From Promethearchaeota archaeon (GTDB taxonomy: Archaea > Asgardarchaeota > Lokiarchaeia > Sigyniarchaeales > SOKP01), in the NCBI GenBank assembly GCA_019058245.1, contig JAHPZJ010000024.1:1-64000 (forward strand): a stretch of 64,000 bases of DNA. Reading direction: 5' to 3'. This document shows, one piece after another, positions 1,108 through 40,349 of the stretch (position 1 is its first letter; the number at the start of each line of letters is the position of its first letter). The position numbers were made by a program, and so were the translations under genes. The notes beneath the pieces were generated by a model. It saw only the letters and a program-made list of their open reading frames with translations, had not been told where the DNA came from and made no database searches.

Positions 1108-2868
1108 ATGGCGACAAAATTAGAAGAAGAAGATTCACTTAGAAAAAAAGTCTGGAAAATCATTAATTTGATACAAGCAAATCAGTTATTCGTCCATTCC
1201 AAGAACTTGGAAATAAGATACTATAATGAAAAAAATAAGAAGATTGAACTAAAAAATTTGCCCGAAATTTTAACTTTAAATGTTTTAAATGCTCTAGTTC
1301 CTAATTCTGCGATGTTATTGATTGGTGGACATGGTGGGGGGAAGACCTCAATCTGTAAATATCTTGGTCGGATGTTTACTTCCAATTCCCTTAATGAAAT
1401 CGAGAACTCAATTATAAGAGGACATCCACAATTAACTGAAGAGAAACTTATAGGTACTTTAAAACTTGGGAAATTAATGAAGGAAGGAAAAGAAGAAGTA
1501 GTATGGCGTCAATTTGTTACTAACTTTTGGAAAATAATCGATGAAGTAAACCGTCTAACTCCATATGCTCAAGATATATTACTCTCTTTGCTTGCAGAAG
1601 GTACTGTTAAATATTATGACACAATTACTACTATAAATAAATACTGTCTGTTTGCCACAATAAATCCTCATGATGTTGGTACTTTTGAATTATCTCAACC
1701 ATTTTTAGACAGATTTGGAATCTCTGTGCCTATTTCAATGCCTGGAAGTCATGATTTGCGACTAATTTTAACTGGCAAAGATGAAAAATACAGTGGGTAT
1801 GATGAATTAATCCAAGTACCTAAAGTTTTAAATATAGATGAGTTAATGGAAATTCACTTCTATATTAATAGAATTTCTTTCCCATCTGAAGTTAATAACT
1901 ATATCCATGCTATAGTCAGAGAATTTACGTTATGTGATCGTATTGATAAAGGGAATACAGAAGACTTAAAACCCAGTACAGGGCTATGTTCAGGATGTCA
2001 TTTTAATACGGCTCAAAATGTTTGTAATAAAATTGATTCGATTTTAAGTGTGAGAGTTGCCAAGGATCTATTAAGATATTCCAAAGCCTTAACGTGGTTA
2101 TTAGGGTTTAATAAAGTTGACATTCATATTGTTAATACAATTGCTCCTTACGTAATATCGCATAGAACGATATATGTGAAAAGAGAGTTAGATAAAGCGC
2201 CATATTTTGGAAATAAATATGAATTTTCCAAGAATCTTTTGAATAAAATTTTAAAAAGATTTAAAAATCGTGAAACCTGTTATATCATTACAGAAAGATT
2301 TCGAGAGGGAAATCCTAAGGATAATGACTTAATAGAATTGAAAAAGTTCGAAAAGAATGATTTAATTGTAAAATATGATTTAATTCCATTTGTAAATTCA
2401 GTTAATAATAAAATATATCCTCTATTAGCTCAACAAATTCAAGAAGCCTCTAAAAAAGGTAATATTACAAAATTGGCTGAAATCAGAAATAACCTTATGG
2501 AAGAAATTGATTTCCCTAATAGAGGTGACTTAATAGAATGGATAAATCGTGAGTTATTTAAACAAACTGTTACTGATTATGTATTCAAATTTTCTTATTG
2601 GAAGGAATTATGGGCGGATATTGCAGCAGAGTTTTCTGAATTAGATCAACCAATAAAGGAAGCTTTCAGTCAAAGACAAACAAAACAAATCCGAACGGAA
2701 GATCTTTTAATAGAAATAAATGTAACTGGTACTAATGATGATTCATTAGTGAATATTCAGGTCTCAGGAGGTTCTGAAGCTTTAAAATTGAGAAATATAA
2801 TTAATAATTTAGGTTATATTCAGAAAGAAGAAAAAATAGTATTAGATCAAAATGGTACAATCAAGTAA
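1108..2868 (+). CDS. MoxR-type AAA+ ATPase with a cysteine cluster
   Basis: Walker A GGHGGGKTS, Walker B-like WKIIDEVNRL, sensor ATINPHD; C..CSGC..C cluster mid-protein; GTGAT SD-like motif 3 nt before ATG; overlaps the VWA gene downstream. Confidence 0.85.
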   Translation: MATKLEEEDSLRKKVWKIINLIQANQLFVHSKNLEIRYYNEKNKKIELKNLPEILTLNVLNALVPNSAMLLIGGHGGGKTSICKYLGRMFTSNSLNEIENSIIRGHPQLTEEKLIGTLKLGKLMKEGKEEVVWRQFVTNFWKIIDEVNRLTPYAQDILLSLLAEGTVKYYDTITTINKYCLFATINPHDVGTFELSQPFLDRFGISVPISMPGSHDLRLILTGKDEKYSGYDELIQVPKVLNIDELMEIHFYINRISFPSEVNNYIHAIVREFTLCDRIDKGNTEDLKPSTGLCSGCHFNTAQNVCNKIDSILSVRVAKDLLRYSKALTWLLGFNKVDIHIVNTIAPYVISHRTIYVKRELDKAPYFGNKYEFSKNLLNKILKRFKNRETCYIITERFREGNPKDNDLIELKKFEKNDLIVKYDLIPFVNSVNNKIYPLLAQQIQEASKKGNITKLAEIRNNLMEEIDFPNRGDLIEWINRELFKQTVTDYVFKFSYWKELWADIAAEFSELDQPIKEAFSQRQTKQIRTEDLLIEINVTGTNDDSLVNIQVSGGSEALKLRNIINNLGYIQKEEKIVLDQNGTIK

Positions 2869-4573
2869 AAGAGGAAAAAGTAAAACTAGTAAAAAAGAAA
2901 TTACAGAAAATGAATTAAAGATCATTGAATTAGCGAAGATCGCATTTGATAAAGCTCTTGCTGAATTTTATTTCCCTCCGTTAAATGAGCCTAATTATGT
3001 ATTTGATTATACACATTTAGAAGGTTTTTATATCGATCCTGAACATAGATGGCAGATTACAATGAACTTAGCCAATACTCCTTTATTCAAAGATAATAAT
3101 GAATATATAGACTATTTTCATATTATTTCACTTCATGAAATATCTCATTATCAGATAATACCTTATGATGGATTAATTAATGCAAAATTACTTAGAGCTG
3201 CTATGCTTCATGTAAACCAGAAATTTGCCCCTATAATTGTAAATATTTTTGCTGATCTTATAATAGACACAAAGTTATATCAAAAATATCCAAGTCTCAT
3301 CAAATGGGAGATGGAGGTAACCTATAAACATCTTAAAAGTAAGGGTTCAATTAGTAATTTGACAAAATTCCTGTTTCGAGCGTATGAAAAATTATGGAAG
3401 GAAGATGTATTACATGATGAAACATTAAAAGAAATGGATTCCTTAGCTGAAAAAGTTACTAAAACAATTCTAAAGGATTTCGAGGATGAGACTACCTGGG
3501 AAAAAAAAGTATCTCTAATTGCTAAATATTTAAATAATTTAATTCAAGATACTTTCACCTTAATAGGTACGGGAGGTATCTTGGATAAAAATAAAGAAAA
3601 GAGAAAAGGTCCAGGTGGAGTTTTTATAGAAGTTCCCAAAGATGTTTTAGAAGTAATGGATAATCCATTAGAGAATAAAAATGCTGATAAATTAAAACAA
3701 GGAAATGAAGATGATTTAAGACAAAAATCAGAAGATTTTGCAAAAGATATTCCATACTCCGAATTTGGTGGACCTGCTAGACAAGCAGGGATCTTGATTG
3801 ATGGAAATGCGTTAGCTACTTGGTATAGGGGATCCGCAAAAAATTTAATCGAAATAAAGATATTTGAGCAAAAGCCAGGAGGTCAGTTACCTGTTTATCC
3901 TGAAGTGTGGCGAATTGGAGATAGAATCGAACAATTGGACGTAGTTCAGAGTCTATTAAATAGCCCCATAATGATTCCGAATATTACAACAAGAAAATGG
4001 GCGTTTAGAGAGGGAACTGGGCACTTAGTAGAAAAGCAGATTCCTGATCTATTAATTGTTTTGGATTCTTCAGGTTCAATGGGTTGGAATTATATATCTA
4101 GATCTACCCGTGGTAAAGGACCTTATCATACCGCTTTAATAGCTGCATTTGCTTCTCTACACTTCGCTGCAAGTAAAGGAGCAAAATTTAGTATAATTAA
4201 TTTTTCAAATAGAGCAGATATTTGTCAATGGACTTCTGATTATAAAAAGGCTGAACACACTTTACTTAGATATCAAGGAGGTGGTACATTCCTGCCCATA
4301 AAACAAATTTCGAATCAATGTGGAAAAGCAGATAGAAATGTGCTTGTTTTTATTATTACGGATTTTGGCATTTATAATTGGAGTAAAGCTAAAAAAGTTA
4401 TGATAGATTTAGCTCAAAAAGGGCATAAAATTGTAGGTTTCTTTATTGGGTCAAAAAAAATTCCAATAAACAAATTTAAGAATTTACTTGATAAAGTTAC
4501 CTTCTATGGAATCGGAAATCCTAAAGATTTAATTAATCTAGTTATACAAGAAGTTAAAAAGAATTATTTATAG
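2852..4573 (+). CDS. VWA-domain protein with N-terminal HExxH metallopeptidase-like region (DUF2201-like)
   Basis: HEISH motif (ISLHEISHYQ) near the N-terminus; MIDAS DSSGSM and TDFG in the C-terminal VWA; 17-nt overlap with the MoxR ATPase gene. Confidence 0.8.
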   Translation: MVQSSKRGKSKTSKKEITENELKIIELAKIAFDKALAEFYFPPLNEPNYVFDYTHLEGFYIDPEHRWQITMNLANTPLFKDNNEYIDYFHIISLHEISHYQIIPYDGLINAKLLRAAMLHVNQKFAPIIVNIFADLIIDTKLYQKYPSLIKWEMEVTYKHLKSKGSISNLTKFLFRAYEKLWKEDVLHDETLKEMDSLAEKVTKTILKDFEDETTWEKKVSLIAKYLNNLIQDTFTLIGTGGILDKNKEKRKGPGGVFIEVPKDVLEVMDNPLENKNADKLKQGNEDDLRQKSEDFAKDIPYSEFGGPARQAGILIDGNALATWYRGSAKNLIEIKIFEQKPGGQLPVYPEVWRIGDRIEQLDVVQSLLNSPIMIPNITTRKWAFREGTGHLVEKQIPDLLIVLDSSGSMGWNYISRSTRGKGPYHTALIAAFASLHFAASKGAKFSIINFSNRADICQWTSDYKKAEHTLLRYQGGGTFLPIKQISNQCGKADRNVLVFIITDFGIYNWSKAKKVMIDLAQKGHKIVGFFIGSKKIPINKFKNLLDKVTFYGIGNPKDLINLVIQEVKKNYL

Positions 4574-32906: not shown

Positions 32907-33185
32907 ATGAAAGCAAAAGATCCTGAGAGTAAAGAAAGCTTAATCAAATTAGTTAAAAAAGCAATCGAATTACTTGCTGAAAGAAATATATCTAAAACGG
33001 TAATTTTATCTTCCTATAAGATTAATTCTGTTTTAAAAGAAAATTATGGAGTAAACATTAAGGTTGATAAAATTGGTAGAATTCTAAGTAAGATAGCGAC
33101 GTTGAATGAACTAAAGAGGCTTAATACTAATATTCCAAAGTATAAATTGCAGATAACGAAGGTTTCAAGTTTACGGTTCTTTTAA
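32907..33185 (+). CDS. Small winged-helix-like hypothetical protein
   Basis: 92 aa, helical pattern KINSVLKENYGVNIKVDKIGRILSKIATLNELKRL. Confidence 0.5.
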   Translation: MKAKDPESKESLIKLVKKAIELLAERNISKTVILSSYKINSVLKENYGVNIKVDKIGRILSKIATLNELKRLNTNIPKYKLQITKVSSLRFF

Positions 33186-33192
33186 ATTTTCT

Positions 33193-34560
33193 TTAGTTTA
33201 AGTTTCGAAAGCTAGTAATTATTTTTTGAAGTTTTTCAAGCAAATTCTTTATTTCGGAATTATTTTCTTTGAAAGGAGTTAATTCTGTATTTAATTTTTC
33301 AATTTTTTCGTCTATATTTTTCTGTAATGGTAATAGTGAATTGTTTATTTTTCGTTCAATATTTCCAGATAATTTATTTATCTGTTCGTTAGTATCTGTT
33401 AATAATCTTTTATAAATATTGATTAATTCATCAATTTGCACAATTGTTTTCTTTCTTTCCTCTGCGTTTTCAGATATAGAATTTCTTAGAGTCTTAAGTT
33501 CCTCTTCAATACTAACTAAATTTTTTTCAATTGAGATCTTTAGCTCTTTAATTAGTTTTTCCTTGAATTTACTAATATGTTCTTTTAATTCTTTATTAGC
33601 TTCAATTCGAGTATCAACATATTTAGAGACATTTTTCTTGAATTGGTATACTGTTTCATCTAGAGTTCTTTTAAACCAATTGTCTACTTTTCCAAGTCCT
33701 GAAGATATTGCTTCTTTCATTTTACTCAAAACCTTGACAATATATTCAGTTCCTTTAGAAGTTCCTTGATTCAGTCCTTCAATCCAATCTCTCATTTGAG
33801 TATTTAGCATCTCTGTAATCTCCTGAGAGAAATTTTCAGTCCCCTGTTGAAAACTTGAAATAATTGTTTTTATTTGTGAGTCACTTCTTAATTCTTTATC
33901 GATCTCTGATGGTTCTTCTGTGATAGGTATTTCTTGCAAATCTCTTGGAGGAGCTTTAACAAATTCATTTACTTCTTTGATAAGAATAGGATCTTTTTTC
34001 TGAACATCTTCTGAAAATTTTTGAACCCATTTATAATACTCTAATGAGGTTGGTTTTTCAATTCCATATTGTATCTTATGATATTTCTCAGCTTTCGAAA
34101 AATCATCTAATCGGTAGATTTCGAATCCAAGTTCTTCATTTTTGCCCATAAGAGTATGATCAAAAACAATAGCAAATCCATAAGGAAATTTTTCACCCTG
34201 AAAATATTGTAAATTCTTTGTATCACTTTCAGATAAATATAAACCCCAAGAAGGGTGAGAATGATAGTATCCTATTAAATCCGAGGAATATTTCTTTCCA
34301 ATTTCAATAAATAAATCATAAATATCTTTATCAAAACCTATTTCTACTTTATCTCCATGAGATAATGGAACTGCATTTTCCACGATAACAATATCTTCAG
34401 TAGAGTCATATTTTCCTATACAAATTCCCATTACTTCTATACTTTGTTCTAATGCTTCATTACCAAACCGTAATACATGAGTGAGCATATTTCTAAAAGC
34501 TTCCTTTTTAATGAATATCTTTCCTTTTTCACTTTTTCCCTTTGATTCCATATTCTCCAT
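33193..34560 (-). CDS. JAMM/MPN+ metalloprotease-like protein with long coiled-coil C-terminus
   Basis: EVMGICIGK and YYHSHPSWGLYLSESD (HxHx10D complete); heptad-rich C-terminus. Confidence 0.88.
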   Translation of the reverse strand: MENMESKGKSEKGKIFIKKEAFRNMLTHVLRFGNEALEQSIEVMGICIGKYDSTEDIVIVENAVPLSHGDKVEIGFDKDIYDLFIEIGKKYSSDLIGYYHSHPSWGLYLSESDTKNLQYFQGEKFPYGFAIVFDHTLMGKNEELGFEIYRLDDFSKAEKYHKIQYGIEKPTSLEYYKWVQKFSEDVQKKDPILIKEVNEFVKAPPRDLQEIPITEEPSEIDKELRSDSQIKTIISSFQQGTENFSQEITEMLNTQMRDWIEGLNQGTSKGTEYIVKVLSKMKEAISSGLGKVDNWFKRTLDETVYQFKKNVSKYVDTRIEANKELKEHISKFKEKLIKELKISIEKNLVSIEEELKTLRNSISENAEERKKTIVQIDELINIYKRLLTDTNEQINKLSGNIERKINNSLLPLQKNIDEKIEKLNTELTPFKENNSEIKNLLEKLQKIITSFRNLN

Positions 34561-34566
34561 TTTTTC

Positions 34567-36033
34567 TTATTCCTCTTTTTTGTTTAATTTTTCGATTTTT
34601 GTTATTAGATCTTTATTTTTCTTTTCCAATTCAATTACATTTTTTTGGAGAGTTTTGATTTCAATTTCTTGTGATTCTAATTTATTCTGGAGTGGTGTTT
34701 TTAAACTCTCCAATAAGATAATAGCCGCTTTTAAATTGGAAAGGAAACTTTTAGTGTCTTTATTTGAATTTATAAAATTACCAACAATTTTATTACAACT
34801 CCTAACAAAATTTTCGGATATCTCTTTAATATTTGTATCTAATTTGTCTGCAATTAACTCCTCTATAGAATTTATATTATTAGATACACTTTCTAACATA
34901 GAGTTTTGTTGATTTAAAGAGTCAGAAGATTTTAATTCCTTTATATTGATATCAGTTAGATCATCTATTTGTTTATTAAATTGATTTAGTATTGCGTGAA
35001 AACTTTCTTCTAATCTTTTTTCTATCAATAAAGAAAATTCATTATCTAGTTCTGATTTAATATTTTCAAATGATCCCTTAAAAAATTCTTGGTATGAGTC
35101 AAATTCTTCGAATTTATCATCAATATACATATCTAATTCATTTAGTTTCTCCTTAATTGAGAATTTAAAATCTTTCTGAAGTGTTGAAATGCTTTCACTA
35201 AGAGTATTTTTTATTATAATTACATCTTTCCTCATCTGTAAGTTCTTCTCAACAGTTTTTTTTATGATATCTTCACTCCAAGAATTTAAAACTGAAATTA
35301 ATGGGTCAATAGATGCTTCTACGAATTTTGTCAAACCTGCTTTTAGGGAGGATAAGATCATTAGAGAATTCAATTCTGGTTTTTTTGTTAGAATTTGACT
35401 TTCACTAGGGAATGTTATATCCCCAAATAAATCAGGCATTTCGTTAATTTCTAGTATAGGTGGTTCTTTTGAATGAACAGAATTAATTAATTCAATTAAT
35501 TTTATATAATATTGCAGACTATCAGGAGGTTCGACAGTAGTTACAACTTCATGATAACCAGACATCTGACCTTTTGCTGGATTATCTAATCTAAATGCAC
35601 GATATCCCATATCTCCAGGTTTTTCTAAATATACATGATCGAAAACAATCCCAATAGCACTTGGATTTGGGGTTTGCCACCCTAATTGGTTTCTAATATC
35701 AGTAGAAGAAAAGAATATATCTAATCCGGGATGAGAATGATACCAACCACAACTGAACCAATTTTTTTCAGCATATGCAGCATCGACCATAGAAAATGTT
35801 ATATAATCTTCTGGGGCAAAAGCAACTTCTATTGCTCCACCATGTGAGATGGGGACTGCATCTTCAATAATAAGCTCTCTTATTCCTTTTTTATCAGGCT
35901 CACCCTCTAACCTACCAATTAATATCCCCATAACTTCTTTAAACTGTCTACGGTCTCTTGCCTTATTCCCAAATCTAAGGACATGCACCAGCATTTTATA
36001 ATAAGCATCTGGTTTAATAATAACAGACGGCAT
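34567..36033 (-). CDS. JAMM/MPN+ metalloprotease-like protein with coiled-coil C-terminus
   Basis: EVMGILIGR and WYHSHPGLDIFFSSTD; adjacent paralog of 33193-34560; GTGAT 5 nt before ATG. Confidence 0.9.
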   Translation of the reverse strand: MPSVIIKPDAYYKMLVHVLRFGNKARDRRQFKEVMGILIGRLEGEPDKKGIRELIIEDAVPISHGGAIEVAFAPEDYITFSMVDAAYAEKNWFSCGWYHSHPGLDIFFSSTDIRNQLGWQTPNPSAIGIVFDHVYLEKPGDMGYRAFRLDNPAKGQMSGYHEVVTTVEPPDSLQYYIKLIELINSVHSKEPPILEINEMPDLFGDITFPSESQILTKKPELNSLMILSSLKAGLTKFVEASIDPLISVLNSWSEDIIKKTVEKNLQMRKDVIIIKNTLSESISTLQKDFKFSIKEKLNELDMYIDDKFEEFDSYQEFFKGSFENIKSELDNEFSLLIEKRLEESFHAILNQFNKQIDDLTDINIKELKSSDSLNQQNSMLESVSNNINSIEELIADKLDTNIKEISENFVRSCNKIVGNFINSNKDTKSFLSNLKAAIILLESLKTPLQNKLESQEIEIKTLQKNVIELEKKNKDLITKIEKLNKKEE

Positions 36034-36209
36034 TTGTTATCACGATTTATGTTTTAGATTTAGTTTGTTAATGATATATATATAATTTAATTGGTTTTAA
36101 ATATTTGAATAAAAGAATATAATTTAAATCTGATTTTATTGTCATTTCTCTCAATATATTTATAGTTAAGAAAAAATAAAATCAAAAATAGAAAATATAT
36201 GTTTAATTA

Positions 36210-36857
36210 CTAATCGTGAGGTAAGGGTTTACCACAGAAGGGACAGAATCTAAATCCCAAATCTTTTCCACAAAAAGGGCAAAATTCACTAGCTTTACTT
36301 TCAGAATCTTCTATTTCAGCCCCTTCCTTAGGTATTGAAGGTAATTGCCTTGTTGTTCTAACAGTTGGGGCTGATGATTGAGCCTCTGCCTTCCTTGCAG
36401 CTACTGTTGCTTTAAAGGCTTGTCTTCTCTCCTCCTCAAGTTCTTGTTGGCTTTTTATCTCTTCAGTTTTTACCCAACCCTGAACTTTAGGCCTTTTCAA
36501 TTCACTTTCAGGAACACTCTCTAATTCAACTTCTTTTGTTTCTGAAATAGGAGCCATAACTTTTCTCTCTTCTTTTCTCTGCAGAGATTGTTTAACAAGA
36601 GCTTGAGTAGTTTTCATAACTTGATGTGGATTAATATTAGGTATGGCTACAGTTCTAAGAACCCATCCTACAATAATATTTTGATTTGGAAAATCTCCTT
36701 CAACATCCTCATCTTTAAAAACATAGGAGTCAATAATATCCTGTCCTTTAAGCATCCGTACAGCCCATTTTTCATTAATCAGTCCTAATTGAAGTCGGTA
36801 GCTCGTTCCTGGCACACCAAGCTGACCAGATAGGGGAATAAAACCAATTTCAGTCAA
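36210..36857 (-). CDS. Protein with C-terminal double zinc ribbon, unknown N-terminal domain
   Basis: EFCPFCGKDLGFRFCPFCGKPLPHD; TTG start with GTGAT upstream. Confidence 0.7.
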   Translation of the reverse strand: MTEIGFIPLSGQLGVPGTSYRLQLGLINEKWAVRMLKGQDIIDSYVFKDEDVEGDFPNQNIIVGWVLRTVAIPNINPHQVMKTTQALVKQSLQRKEERKVMAPISETKEVELESVPESELKRPKVQGWVKTEEIKSQQELEEERRQAFKATVAARKAEAQSSAPTVRTTRQLPSIPKEGAEIEDSESKASEFCPFCGKDLGFRFCPFCGKPLPHD

Positions 36858-37069
36858 TATAAATCACATTTTATCTCTAAATTATATGTTTTCTGTAATA
36901 TTATAATGATAAATTCGGAATTTAAATTATTTTTTATTTACAGTAAAAATTTATCTTATAATTAAAAATTTTTATCATCACTTTAGCTATCAAAAGGCAT
37001 AAATACAAAAATTTGTATTAAATTTGCATATATTTTCCTCAGAAAAAAAAATTTAAAGAAGATTTTACT

Positions 37070-38020
37070 ATGGTTGTTATTATTCCTAAACAATGTTATC
37101 TGGCAGTGGTAGCTGCTGCGGTTAGATTTGCAAATACACGTATTCCTAAAAATGATTGGTTAGAAGTGAGCGGAATTTTCATAGGAAAGAATCAGGGCGA
37201 TGATGTAATAATTACACAAACATATCCAATAATGCATCAAGAACTGGATAAAGATGCTGTAATCGATCAATATAAATGGTCTGATGAGGATTATATTGCT
37301 TTTAGTATTATTGATGATGAAGCTTTTGAAAGAGGTGAATTTACAGTAGGATGGTGGCATTCTCATCCAGATTTTAAAGTAATGATGTCCCATATTGATA
37401 TACAGACTACTCTTTCCTATCAACAAAATAATCCAAAAGCAATTTCTTTAGTATTTAATCCTACGAGATTAATTCGACAGATTGAATTAGCTGATAAAAA
37501 AGGAGATCCGGATAAACAATTAAAAAATGATCCTGGCTTTAAAATATTCAGATTAGATGATGTAAATTCTGGTGTAGAGGCTTCATATCATACTGCAGAT
37601 TACAGAATTGAAGGATATGATAGCATGGAACAATTAATTGCGCAAACTCAGAAATTTATTATTGATATCACTAATTTTTTTCCTAAAGATAATGTACCAG
37701 ATACATATAGCAAATTCATTGATGAACGCATAGAAAAATTGGAGTCTCTCTTTCTTGGTACTGAAGAGTATTTGACCACCTTAACACATCGAGGAGAAAA
37801 ATCAAGAATTCCAGAAGTTTTAGAAAATCAAAGTCAAGAAATTCGCAAATTTGTAGCAGATACATCTGTAAAGATAGAAAATATCCGGGAATTTATGAAC
37901 TATTTAGAATATAAAGAAAGAGAAGTAATATTTCCTCAGATAGAAGAAATTATAAATAGATGGGATGAACATGTTTCTGGATTAGATAAAAGATTGAAGC
38001 AGCTTAAGAAGAGATTTTGA
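37070..38020 (+). CDS. JAMM/MPN+ metalloprotease-like protein with helical C-terminus
   Basis: EVSGIFIGK and WWHSHPDFKVMMSHID (HxHx10D complete). Confidence 0.88.
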   Translation: MVVIIPKQCYLAVVAAAVRFANTRIPKNDWLEVSGIFIGKNQGDDVIITQTYPIMHQELDKDAVIDQYKWSDEDYIAFSIIDDEAFERGEFTVGWWHSHPDFKVMMSHIDIQTTLSYQQNNPKAISLVFNPTRLIRQIELADKKGDPDKQLKNDPGFKIFRLDDVNSGVEASYHTADYRIEGYDSMEQLIAQTQKFIIDITNFFPKDNVPDTYSKFIDERIEKLESLFLGTEEYLTTLTHRGEKSRIPEVLENQSQEIRKFVADTSVKIENIREFMNYLEYKEREVIFPQIEEIINRWDEHVSGLDKRLKQLKKRF

Positions 38021-38144
38021 ATTAAATAATTTTCATCCTATTTTTAGTTTTGATAAATTTTTATTTGATTACGCTTTTTTTTTGATTAATTATTTGATTT
38101 TTTTAAATATATTTTCATAGAACTTATAGATCACATAAAGTATT

Positions 38145-40349
38145 ATGAAGAAAATAAATTTTCCTTTTACAGCGATTCTTGGTCAAGAGAAAATGAAAAT
38201 GGGGTTAGTATTGAATGTTATAGACCCTCAAATTGGTGGTATTCTTCTAACAGGACAACAAGGTACAGGGAAAAGTACAGCTGTCAGGTCTCTTGTAGAA
38301 TTGATGCCCCAAATCGAAGTTATAACGGGTTGTGAATTTTCATGTGATCCACATTCTGATATTGACATTTTATGTCAAAATTGTATAGAAAAGCGGGAAA
38401 ATGGTAAAATTCGAACGGAATATAGAGATATGTGGTTAGTAAATTTACCTTTAGGAGTAACAGAAGATATGGTATGTGGGTCGTTATCTATAGACAAAGT
38501 CCTTACAGAAGGGATAAGAGCCCTACATCCTGGTTTATTGGCAAAAGCGAATCGAGGAATACTTTATGTAGACGAAATTAATCTCCTTCAAGATCATATA
38601 GTTGATGTTCTTTTAGATTCAGCGGCTTCTGGTGTTAATATTATAGAAAGAGAAGGTATTTCTGTATCACATCCCTCTAGATTTGTGTTAGTTGGATCGA
38701 TGAACCCAGAAGAAGGCGATTTAAGACCTCAAATAGCGGATCGTCTTGGTTTAGAAGTAAGAATAGAAGCACCTAGAGATCCAGAATTACGTGCTGAAAT
38801 AACTAAAAGAGTAATAGAATTTGATGATCATCCAAAAGAATTTATTCAAGCTTTTGAAAATGAACAGGAAAAACTGAGAAAGGAAATTATAAATGCTCGT
38901 CAAATTTTAAAAGAAGTTCAAATACCAAGCTCAGTTTATGAATTTGTTTCGAAAATTGTAAACGAGTTGGAGATTTTTTCTCAACGAGCTGATATCACAT
39001 TTATAAGATGTGCTCGTGCTCATGCTGCATTAAACAATAGAAAAACTATAACCGAAGATGATCTTAATGTTGCAATGGATTTGGTATTTAAACACAGAAT
39101 TCAATCACTCCATTATGAAATGACACCTGAAGAAATAAAGGCTAAGATTGCTGAAGTTTATGGAAAAATAAGAGAAGCATATGAAAATACTGATATTCTT
39201 CAACCAAATAGGGAAACTGAGGGGCCTTTAAAACATGATGACAGTTCTCAAAAAGAGTTTAAACGTCAATCTGTTGATCCTGAAAAAGTCGATATCCCCG
39301 AGACAAAAGAAGAGAAATTACCCCCTCCAAAATATCCTGATAACAGAAAACGAAATCCAAAACCTGCTGGAGGTTGGAAAGTGAAAAATATTCCTCTTAA
39401 TGAGGATCTACGATTCTTTGAAGCAAAAAATGGTTCTCTTCCCTTTATTTATAAAATGGAAAAAAAAATGACGTCTATCTTAGATAATATTAGGAAAGAA
39501 CGAAAAATTTCTGATTATGGAGGAAGAGGAATAGGTAGAAGAATTAAAATATCTTCATCACAAAAGGGAAGATATGTCTCATACAGGACTTCCATAAGAG
39601 AACAACCAAAATCTATTGCGTTAGACGCTACTATTAGGAATTATCTTAAAAATATAGTATATAATGAAACTGAAATCGATTTTCCTATCCATTTTAACAA
39701 ATATGATCTAATGGATAAGATTTATGAATATCGTGCTCCGCTAGCATTATTCTTTGTATTAGATAGTTCAGCATCTATGTTTTATGTAATAAAACAAATG
39801 ACCGATGTAATTCTGTCTTTACACAGAGAGGGATATAGAAAAAGAGATAAAATTGCCTTAATTATTTTTCGTGGGAAGGAAGCAGTTGTTCTTCAAAAAC
39901 CTACTGTTAATTTTAAAATGGCAGTTAATAAGTTGAAAAAGCTCGAGGGGAAATCATATACACCAATGGCAGCAGCATTAAAAAAAGTATCTGAATTAAT
40001 AAAAATTGAGAAGCTGAAGGATAGAAATATTATTCCAGTTGTTTTTATATGTAGTGATTGCGGAGCAAATATTTCTGTAAAATATCCTGATTTAATAGCT
40101 CAGATTGAAACAGATTATACTTTAATTACAAGGGAATTAGAAGAATTGACAAAAAAATTATCAAAACAAAATATCCATATGGTTGTTCTCGAACCAAAAA
40201 AATCTTATGCAACTCACGCTTTAGGAGTACATACGTATTCAGCAGAACTTATTAAAAAAAACTTTAAAAAATATGCTAATGCTCAGATTTATAAATTTAA
40301 CAAATATAATCCTAATTCATTAATATTAGAATTGAAGAAAATCCTTTAG
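38145..40349 (+). CDS. Mg-chelatase-type AAA+ ATPase fused to VWA (BchI/BchD-like)
   Basis: TGQQGTGKST, LYVDEINLL, VGSMNPEEGDLRPQIADR; C-terminal VWA FVLDSSASM. Confidence 0.88.
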   Translation: MKKINFPFTAILGQEKMKMGLVLNVIDPQIGGILLTGQQGTGKSTAVRSLVELMPQIEVITGCEFSCDPHSDIDILCQNCIEKRENGKIRTEYRDMWLVNLPLGVTEDMVCGSLSIDKVLTEGIRALHPGLLAKANRGILYVDEINLLQDHIVDVLLDSAASGVNIIEREGISVSHPSRFVLVGSMNPEEGDLRPQIADRLGLEVRIEAPRDPELRAEITKRVIEFDDHPKEFIQAFENEQEKLRKEIINARQILKEVQIPSSVYEFVSKIVNELEIFSQRADITFIRCARAHAALNNRKTITEDDLNVAMDLVFKHRIQSLHYEMTPEEIKAKIAEVYGKIREAYENTDILQPNRETEGPLKHDDSSQKEFKRQSVDPEKVDIPETKEEKLPPPKYPDNRKRNPKPAGGWKVKNIPLNEDLRFFEAKNGSLPFIYKMEKKMTSILDNIRKERKISDYGGRGIGRRIKISSSQKGRYVSYRTSIREQPKSIALDATIRNYLKNIVYNETEIDFPIHFNKYDLMDKIYEYRAPLALFFVLDSSASMFYVIKQMTDVILSLHREGYRKRDKIALIIFRGKEAVVLQKPTVNFKMAVNKLKKLEGKSYTPMAAALKKVSELIKIEKLKDRNIIPVVFICSDCGANISVKYPDLIAQIETDYTLITRELEELTKKLSKQNIHMVVLEPKKSYATHALGVHTYSAELIKKNFKKYANAQIYKFNKYNPNSLILELKKIL

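Follow-up and report, generated by a model that had tools for sequence, protein, structure and literature searches.

In the proteasome lid, the COP9 signalosome, eIF3 and the BRCC36 complexes, a working MPN subunit is centrally paired with a dead one, an arrangement hitherto known from eukaryotic machines. Whether comparable pairs exist in archaea is the question raised by a 64,000-nucleotide stretch of the genome of a Promethearchaeota archaeon (contig JAHPZJ010000024.1, positions 1 to 64,000; hereafter the window). The genome is ~76% complete. The window encodes three JAMM proteins (JAMM1, JAMM2 and JAMM3), a zinc-ribbon protein (ZnR) and a protein with AAA and VWA domains (AAA-VWA). We read JAMM2 and JAMM1, with moderate confidence, as two halves of one isopeptidase machine, in which JAMM2 would be the catalytic subunit and JAMM1 a structural or regulatory subunit with a decaying active site; JAMM3 and ZnR would stand apart from this pair, and AAA-VWA would be a neighbour.

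Catalytic site of the JAMM proteins

The three JAMM proteins of the window possess the catalytic Glu and the HxHx7Sx2D motif and score above the curated cut-off of the Pfam JAB family (22.5 bits), in agreement with a preliminary description of this DNA, made from the sequence alone, that had listed three open reading frames with complete motifs. The five catalytic residues were tabulated in family f1, to which the window genome belongs, for 50 JAMM1, 50 JAMM2 and 43 scored JAMM3 proteins. The motif is complete in JAMM2 of 50/50 genomes and in JAMM3 of 43/43. The corresponding number for JAMM1 is 16/50 (EHHSD or EHHTD), the window genome included. At least one zinc ligand of JAMM1 is gone in 23 genomes (e.g. 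ISR replacing HSH, T replacing D) and the catalytic Glu in 11 (E to Q, in one case along with Ser to Ala). The designation of the JAMM proteins as intact thus applies to JAMM1 of the window and fails for the JAMM1 family, with motif residues gone in 34 of 50 orthologues. These 34 genomes combine a JAMM1 that has lost a zinc ligand or Glu with a complete JAMM2, the composition expected of an MPN+/MPN- pair; the window genome is not among them.

The loss of zinc ligands differs between JAMM1 and JAMM2 with a Fisher p of 8.7e-9, a value calculated on kin and hence on non-independent genomes. Because of this relatedness, more weight is given to the count of changes on a JAMM1 tree for which the motif columns had been masked. 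Parsimony places at least 4-5 state changes on it, a minimum that rises if regain is excluded. The replacement residues vary from clade to clade. Both states also occur in family f2, where the motif is lost in L048 (SSRNN) and kept in L046. JAMM1 is an uninterrupted open reading frame of 438-471 aa adjoining JAMM2 in all 50 f1 genomes. Among the 20 sequences aligned, residues H28, R31 and F32 are invariant, and the LQEIP segment that follows the MPN domain is conserved. Full-length and with invariant non-catalytic positions, it has the look of a non-catalytic partner.

Origin and conservation of the tandem pair

A tree of MPN domains was calculated with 60 rows. Its eukaryotic and reference rows are limited to the PDB-aligned stretches of CsRpn11 and CSN5, and hence we claim no position with respect to Rpn8. 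JAMM1 clustered with its counterparts from families f2 and f3 (support 98/97). JAMM2 did so with most of its own (98/88), while the copy of L047 (f3) was unresolved at the base. Both clades were joined (97/92), with longer branches for JAMM1. JAMM3 formed a separate clade (100/97), as did the JAMM proteins of ubiquitin operons. The tree therefore indicates that JAMM1 and JAMM2 originate from one duplication predating the families, with JAMM3 outside that pair. In the GTDB set, those relatives of JAMM2 that carry a name belong to Candidatus Lokiarchaeota or Lokiarchaeia, apart from two weak matches in Methanomassiliicoccaceae, in line with a Lokiarchaeal genome as the source of the window.

Gene neighbourhoods were read in ~60 genomes of family f1 and ~20 from other families. 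The usual order in f1 (92-aa protein / JAMM1 / JAMM2 / ZnR | JAMM3 / AAA-VWA / ATP-grasp) proves little, since unrelated neighbours are equally conserved there. The JAMM2-JAMM1 tandem survives in f2 and f3 (L046, L047 and L048) despite differing flanks. In the one-contig genome G004 the units JAMM1-JAMM2 and JAMM3-AAA-VWA are separated by 1.65 Mb. The tandem of JAMM1 and JAMM2 is ancient and has been maintained across Lokiarchaeia families, and the view of the two minus-strand genes as adjacent paralogues is upheld by their sister clades and their tandem position across families. A natural joint loss of the island genes was considered for genome G002 and rejected; a flanking gene for an 817-aa protein is also missing there, and no convincing match was obtained for the roadblock gene.

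Tails and correlated divergence

The long coiled-coil tails ascribed to the pair were recovered. The predicted model of JAMM2 consists of the MPN domain and two helices (residues 232-300 and 308-486), with a mean predicted local distance difference test score (pLDDT) of 74; the tail of JAMM1 is recognized by sequence, aligned over ~240 residues. A Foldseek search with the JAMM2 model ranked BRCC36 first, then Rpn11 and CSN5. Sequence searches of the PDB retrieved CsRpn11/Rpn11 as top match for JAMM2 and CSN5 for JAMM3. The Rpn11/CSN5-like fold proposed for the minus-strand proteins concurs with these results.

Divergence was compared among 20 genomes by Mantel tests on distances regressed on AAA-VWA and ATP-grasp. 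JAMM1 and JAMM2 diverge together (partial r=0.61, p=0.0005), and their tails even more so (partial r=0.73, p=0.0005). The tail of JAMM1 follows the tail of JAMM2 more closely than the latter follows its own MPN domain (0.12). JAMM3 correlates neither with JAMM1 (partial r=0.06) nor with JAMM2 (partial r=0.08). ZnR is moderately correlated with the tails of both JAMM1 and JAMM2 (r 0.46-0.49, p 0.006-0.02).

An ancient tandem duplication in Lokiarchaeia would have given rise to both genes. JAMM2 would be the catalytic subunit, which would depend on zinc and cleave ubiquitin-like modifiers or their precursors. JAMM1 would act as its structural or regulatory MPN partner, held to JAMM2 by the very long coiled-coil tails and by a conserved helix (HVLRFG) near the N-terminus. 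Its site would decay repeatedly into that of an MPN- pseudoenzyme because its own catalysis is dispensable; in the window species, with the motif still complete, the pair may consist of two active subunits. From the genes we infer both the physical heterodimer and the isopeptidase activity of JAMM2. A ubiquitin-like substrate is presumed since a cluster of E1, E2 and JAMM genes exists outside the island in the genomes of relatives. The absence of ubiquitin, E1 and E2 genes, noted earlier for the window, holds for the island; an E2 gene was also not found in the rest of the window's own genome, for which its incompleteness is a possible cause.

Table 1 Coordinates of the island genes, their motifs and sites equivalent to inserts in relatives
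Feature	Position	Strand	Description
JAMM1	33193-34560	-	455 aa; E42/H100/H102/S110/D113; MPN protein with coiled-coil tail; Pfam JAB 37.6 bits
JAMM1 motif HSHPSWGLYLSESD	34222-34263	-	Segment decaying in relatives (ISRPGWGLDFTEVT, LSHP..., HSRL...)
JAMM2	34567-36033	-	488 aa; E33/H99/H101/S109/D112; active-type MPN+, helical tail of ~255 residues; Pfam JAB 43.3 bits
JAMM2 motif HSHPGLDIFFSSTD	35698-35739	-	
ZnR	36210-36857	-	N-terminal domain of ~95 aa, linker, single C-terminal zinc ribbon (C193/C196/C205/C208)
JAMM3	37070-38020	+	316 aa; E32/H97/H99/S107/D110; MPN+, shorter helical tail; Pfam JAB 50.8 bits
JAMM3 motif HSHPDFKVMMSHID	37358-37399	+	37375/37376, site equivalent to the 30-31 nt bulge-helix-bulge-type insert of relatives
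AAA-VWA	38145-40349	+	734 aa; ChlI-ChlD/cobaltochelatase type; Walker A 38253-38276; VWA ~39750-40058
AAA-VWA insert site	38712/38713	+	Site equivalent to the 30-32 nt bulge-helix-bulge-type insert of relatives
92-aa protein	32907-33185	+	Convergent with JAMM1; syntenic in f1; may be a mere neighbour
Interrupted JAMM3 orthologues	L034:11224-12210; L036:10399-11376; L042:8042-9026; L044:11042-12029		

JAMM3 and the zinc-ribbon protein

JAMM3 would be a second, separate isopeptidase of the active type that is functionally coupled to ZnR. The divergent gene pair JAMM3|ZnR survives in f2 (L061, L063, L117, L118 and L178); the divergence of the two proteins is uncorrelated (r=0.03), so that their coupling is proposed from adjacency across families. 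A spacing variant of the JAMM3 motif (S-x3-D, SGFGD) is present in L110, L114, L160, L161 and L170.

ZnR had been announced as a double zinc-ribbon protein. Its two CPxCG knuckles provide four Cys residues (193, 196, 205 and 208) and hence one ribbon, not the eight Cys of two ribbons, and it scores 19.8 bits against Pfam DZR, below the cut-off of 27.3. The main part of ZnR is its N-terminal domain, which occurs across Asgard families, either by itself, in proteins of 92-101 aa (L137:7389-7694, L138:6779-7057), or joined to different C-termini. Its predicted model (AlphaFold2, ~90 pLDDT) comprises four strands followed by two helices (bbbb-a-a) and had no PDB match at E<=0.001. Hence no fold is assigned, and a ubiquitin-like fold was rejected on the same grounds.

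The break of the island in G004 falls within the ZnR gene itself: the N-terminal domain (L064:8373-8753) lies with JAMM3-AAA-VWA at ~0.81 Mb and the ribbon half (G004:C1:2468601-2468891) by JAMM2-JAMM1 at ~2.47 Mb, an arrangement attributed to rearrangement. Elsewhere, the domain is fused to an apparent NYN-type nuclease domain (L141:7197-8072). In class-level relatives (L121, L122, L123 and L144) its gene adjoins that of a membrane protein with an apparent AN1-type zinc finger and a site-2-protease-like domain. In a distant Asgard family (L128-L130, L132-L134, L146 and L147) it lies in conserved order near a TPR/SNAP-like gene and CDC48, the domains of which were checked in L128; the proximity to CDC48 is confined to this family (f28) and was not used as evidence. 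The candidate orthologue L060:9356-9976 was dropped, as it reads as a TATA-binding protein.

The AAA-VWA protein

The reported fusion of AAA and VWA domains is confirmed by a match to TIGR02442 over residues 6-689 (596.8 bits), which stays below the curated cut-off of 779.45. Like ChlI-ChlD and the cobaltochelatase small subunits, the protein combines both domains with Walker A/B and a DxSxS metal-ion-dependent adhesion site; it differs from them in its score, in not lying beside CobN and in being present where CobN is absent. Its gene is linked to JAMM3 only within f1, where other genes intervene in several genomes (L109, L152, L158 and L160), and is unlinked in families f2-f4 and in genus g9.

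The strong TIGR02442 match and this weak linkage outside f1 would both suit an ordinary cobalt/magnesium chelatase subunit that lies beside the JAMM genes by accident. As a whole we consider this explanation unlikely, while its second half, the accidental neighbourhood, is possible. CobN was found in 6 of 19 genomes of the genus and, in those checked (L139, L140 and L255), adjoins a different ChlID paralogue of 656-657 aa. The 734-aa type is present in almost every one of the 79 genomes of the order, among them ones that are 97-99% complete and lack a CobN match. In the window's own, 76% complete genome neither a CobN nor a ChlH partner was found. Since CobN pairs with the other paralogue and the island type occurs order-wide, AAA-VWA is probably not a CobN partner. 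It is best described as a neighbouring ATPase of the chelatase family; its role as a remodeller acting with the JAMM proteins is an analogy and unproven. A second pair of AAA and VWA proteins is encoded at 1108-4573 of the window, where the gene for a MoxR-like AAA protein overlaps that for a VWA protein with an HExxH-like stretch (HEISH). A seemingly split AAA-VWA reading frame in L033 was rejected, being caused by an assembly gap of Ns.

Alternatives to a JAMM2-JAMM1 pair

JAMM1 and JAMM2 could also be independent enzymes that arose by tandem duplication, with the motif of a redundant JAMM1 decaying neutrally towards loss and no complex formed. The motif loss in many lineages, the longer JAMM1 branches and the complete motif of some species agree with such a history. 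We consider it improbable in view of the full-length JAMM1 adjoining JAMM2 in 50 family genomes, its invariant non-catalytic positions and the covariation of both tails, which exceeds that between the JAMM2 tail and its own MPN domain.

Several observations weigh against the paired machine itself. JAMM1 is motif-intact in the window genome and 15 others, which in these 16 genomes leaves room for homodimers or for two enzymes that are both active, and by parsimony only 4-5 state changes are needed on the JAMM1 tree. One JAMM2 subclade (L158, L162 and L165) has three extra residues between HSHP and Ser (H-x-H-x10-S). The JAMM2 model is of moderate confidence in view of its mean pLDDT and a predicted template modelling score of 0.42. 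Furthermore, the 817-aa membrane protein encoded nearby correlates with JAMM1/2 as well (r=0.43-0.45, with AAA-VWA as the only baseline), as does the 92-aa protein (r=0.42-0.53); the weight of the JAMM1-JAMM2 covariation is lowered because linked genes show part of the same signal.

A single complex of all three JAMM proteins, ZnR and an AAA-VWA remodeller, analogous to a lid plus ATPase, would fit the contiguity of the five genes in most f1 genomes and the correlation of ZnR with both tails, but it is very improbable because JAMM3 is a separate, non-covarying clade and AAA-VWA is linked to JAMM3 only within f1, where synteny spans unrelated neighbours too, and G004 splits the island. Of the multi-JAMM complex with AAA-VWA envisaged in the preliminary description, the pairing of JAMM1 with JAMM2 survives through tandem sister clades, correlated divergence and recurrent MPN- states; JAMM3 and AAA-VWA as members do not. 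Conservation of the neighbourhood across families likewise extends to JAMM2-JAMM1 and JAMM3|ZnR and not to AAA-VWA.

Putative introns in relatives

In four genomes of the genus (L034, L036, L042 and L044) JAMM3 is interrupted at one site inside its motif (HSHPGF^K) by 30-31 nt that contain stops or shift the frame. AAA-VWA is interrupted at a sensor-1-like segment (MNPE^EGELRPQ) by 30-32 nt in at least six other genomes (L109/L253, L158, L165, L171, L248 and L249), and in weaker form in L251. A third site near residue 345 of AAA-VWA (L250 and L252) holds an in-frame insert of 30 nt with a stop codon. For ten inserts at the first two sites, one protein-restoring junction yields two 3-nt bulges and a 4-bp central helix with 4/4 pairs, the structure of a bulge-helix-bulge, while the other coding-consistent junctions yield 0-2 pairs; the chance of 4/4 pairs is 2-3% per register. 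The helix has only 3/4 pairs in L251 and in L250/L252. Between species it has changed on both sides (GGCU/AGCU versus GGUU/AACU). Judged by sequence, the inserts are probably introns in protein-coding genes. No further gene came up when the retrieved loci were scanned for this signature. Our search of open-access papers found no such introns in protein genes of Asgard archaea; the citable case is the crenarchaeal cbf5 pre-mRNA (PMC2738675), likewise a bulge-helix-bulge intron in a protein-coding gene, from which the Lokiarchaeal inserts differ by their length of 30-32 nt and in being known here from sequence.

Comparison with known MPN systems

JAMM2 and JAMM1 are best read as an MPN+/MPN- pair of archaea that resembles BRCC36-KIAA0157 or Rpn11-Rpn8. 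If true, the arrangement is not confined to eukaryotes and exists also in their nearest archaeal relatives; the species would cover the transition between two intact enzymes and an enzyme with a pseudoenzyme, and why dead partners arise in MPN dimers would become a directly testable question. That Lokiarchaea independently built the MPN+/MPN- deubiquitinase core of eukaryotes, or retain its precursor, is a highly speculative extension that we hold to be very doubtful; the core would be a coiled-coil JAMM2-JAMM1 dimer in which a pseudoenzyme arises again and again, extended by ZnR as an adaptor and possibly by JAMM3 and AAA-VWA to a lid-like regulatory particle. Among open-access papers, to which our search for an archaeal precedent was restricted, a 2018 study of archaeal Rpn11 stated that the heterodimer organisation was not known in archaea and found CsRpn11 to be monomeric in solution (PMC6043591).

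With CsRpn11 and the JAMM proteins of Asgard ubiquitin operons the island proteins share the MPN+ domain and the complete HxHx7Sx2D motif. The ubiquitin-operon JAMM of these genomes is a different gene of another clade that encodes ~275 aa and adjoins E1 and E2. With the PCI complexes (Rpn11-Rpn8 and CSN5-CSN6) the pair would share the MPN+/MPN- pairing of paralogues. In contrast, no PCI or lid subunits were seen in the Lokiarchaeal island, and the loss in JAMM1, being recent and recurrent, would be convergent with that in Rpn8 and CSN6 and not the same event. BRCC36 is switched on by its MPN- partner KIAA0157 through an MPN dimer and a coiled-coil bundle (PMC4579573). BRCC36-KIAA0157/Abraxas (BRISC, BRCA1-A) resembles JAMM2-JAMM1 of the 34 f1 genomes with a motif-lost JAMM1 in the combination of an MPN+ enzyme and an MPN- partner, and JAMM2-JAMM1 in general in the helical or coiled-coil tails of both partners. 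The putative archaeal heterodimer, deduced from its genes, differs by a partner motif still complete in some species, by its much longer tails and by its tandem genes, which derive from one lineage-specific duplication.

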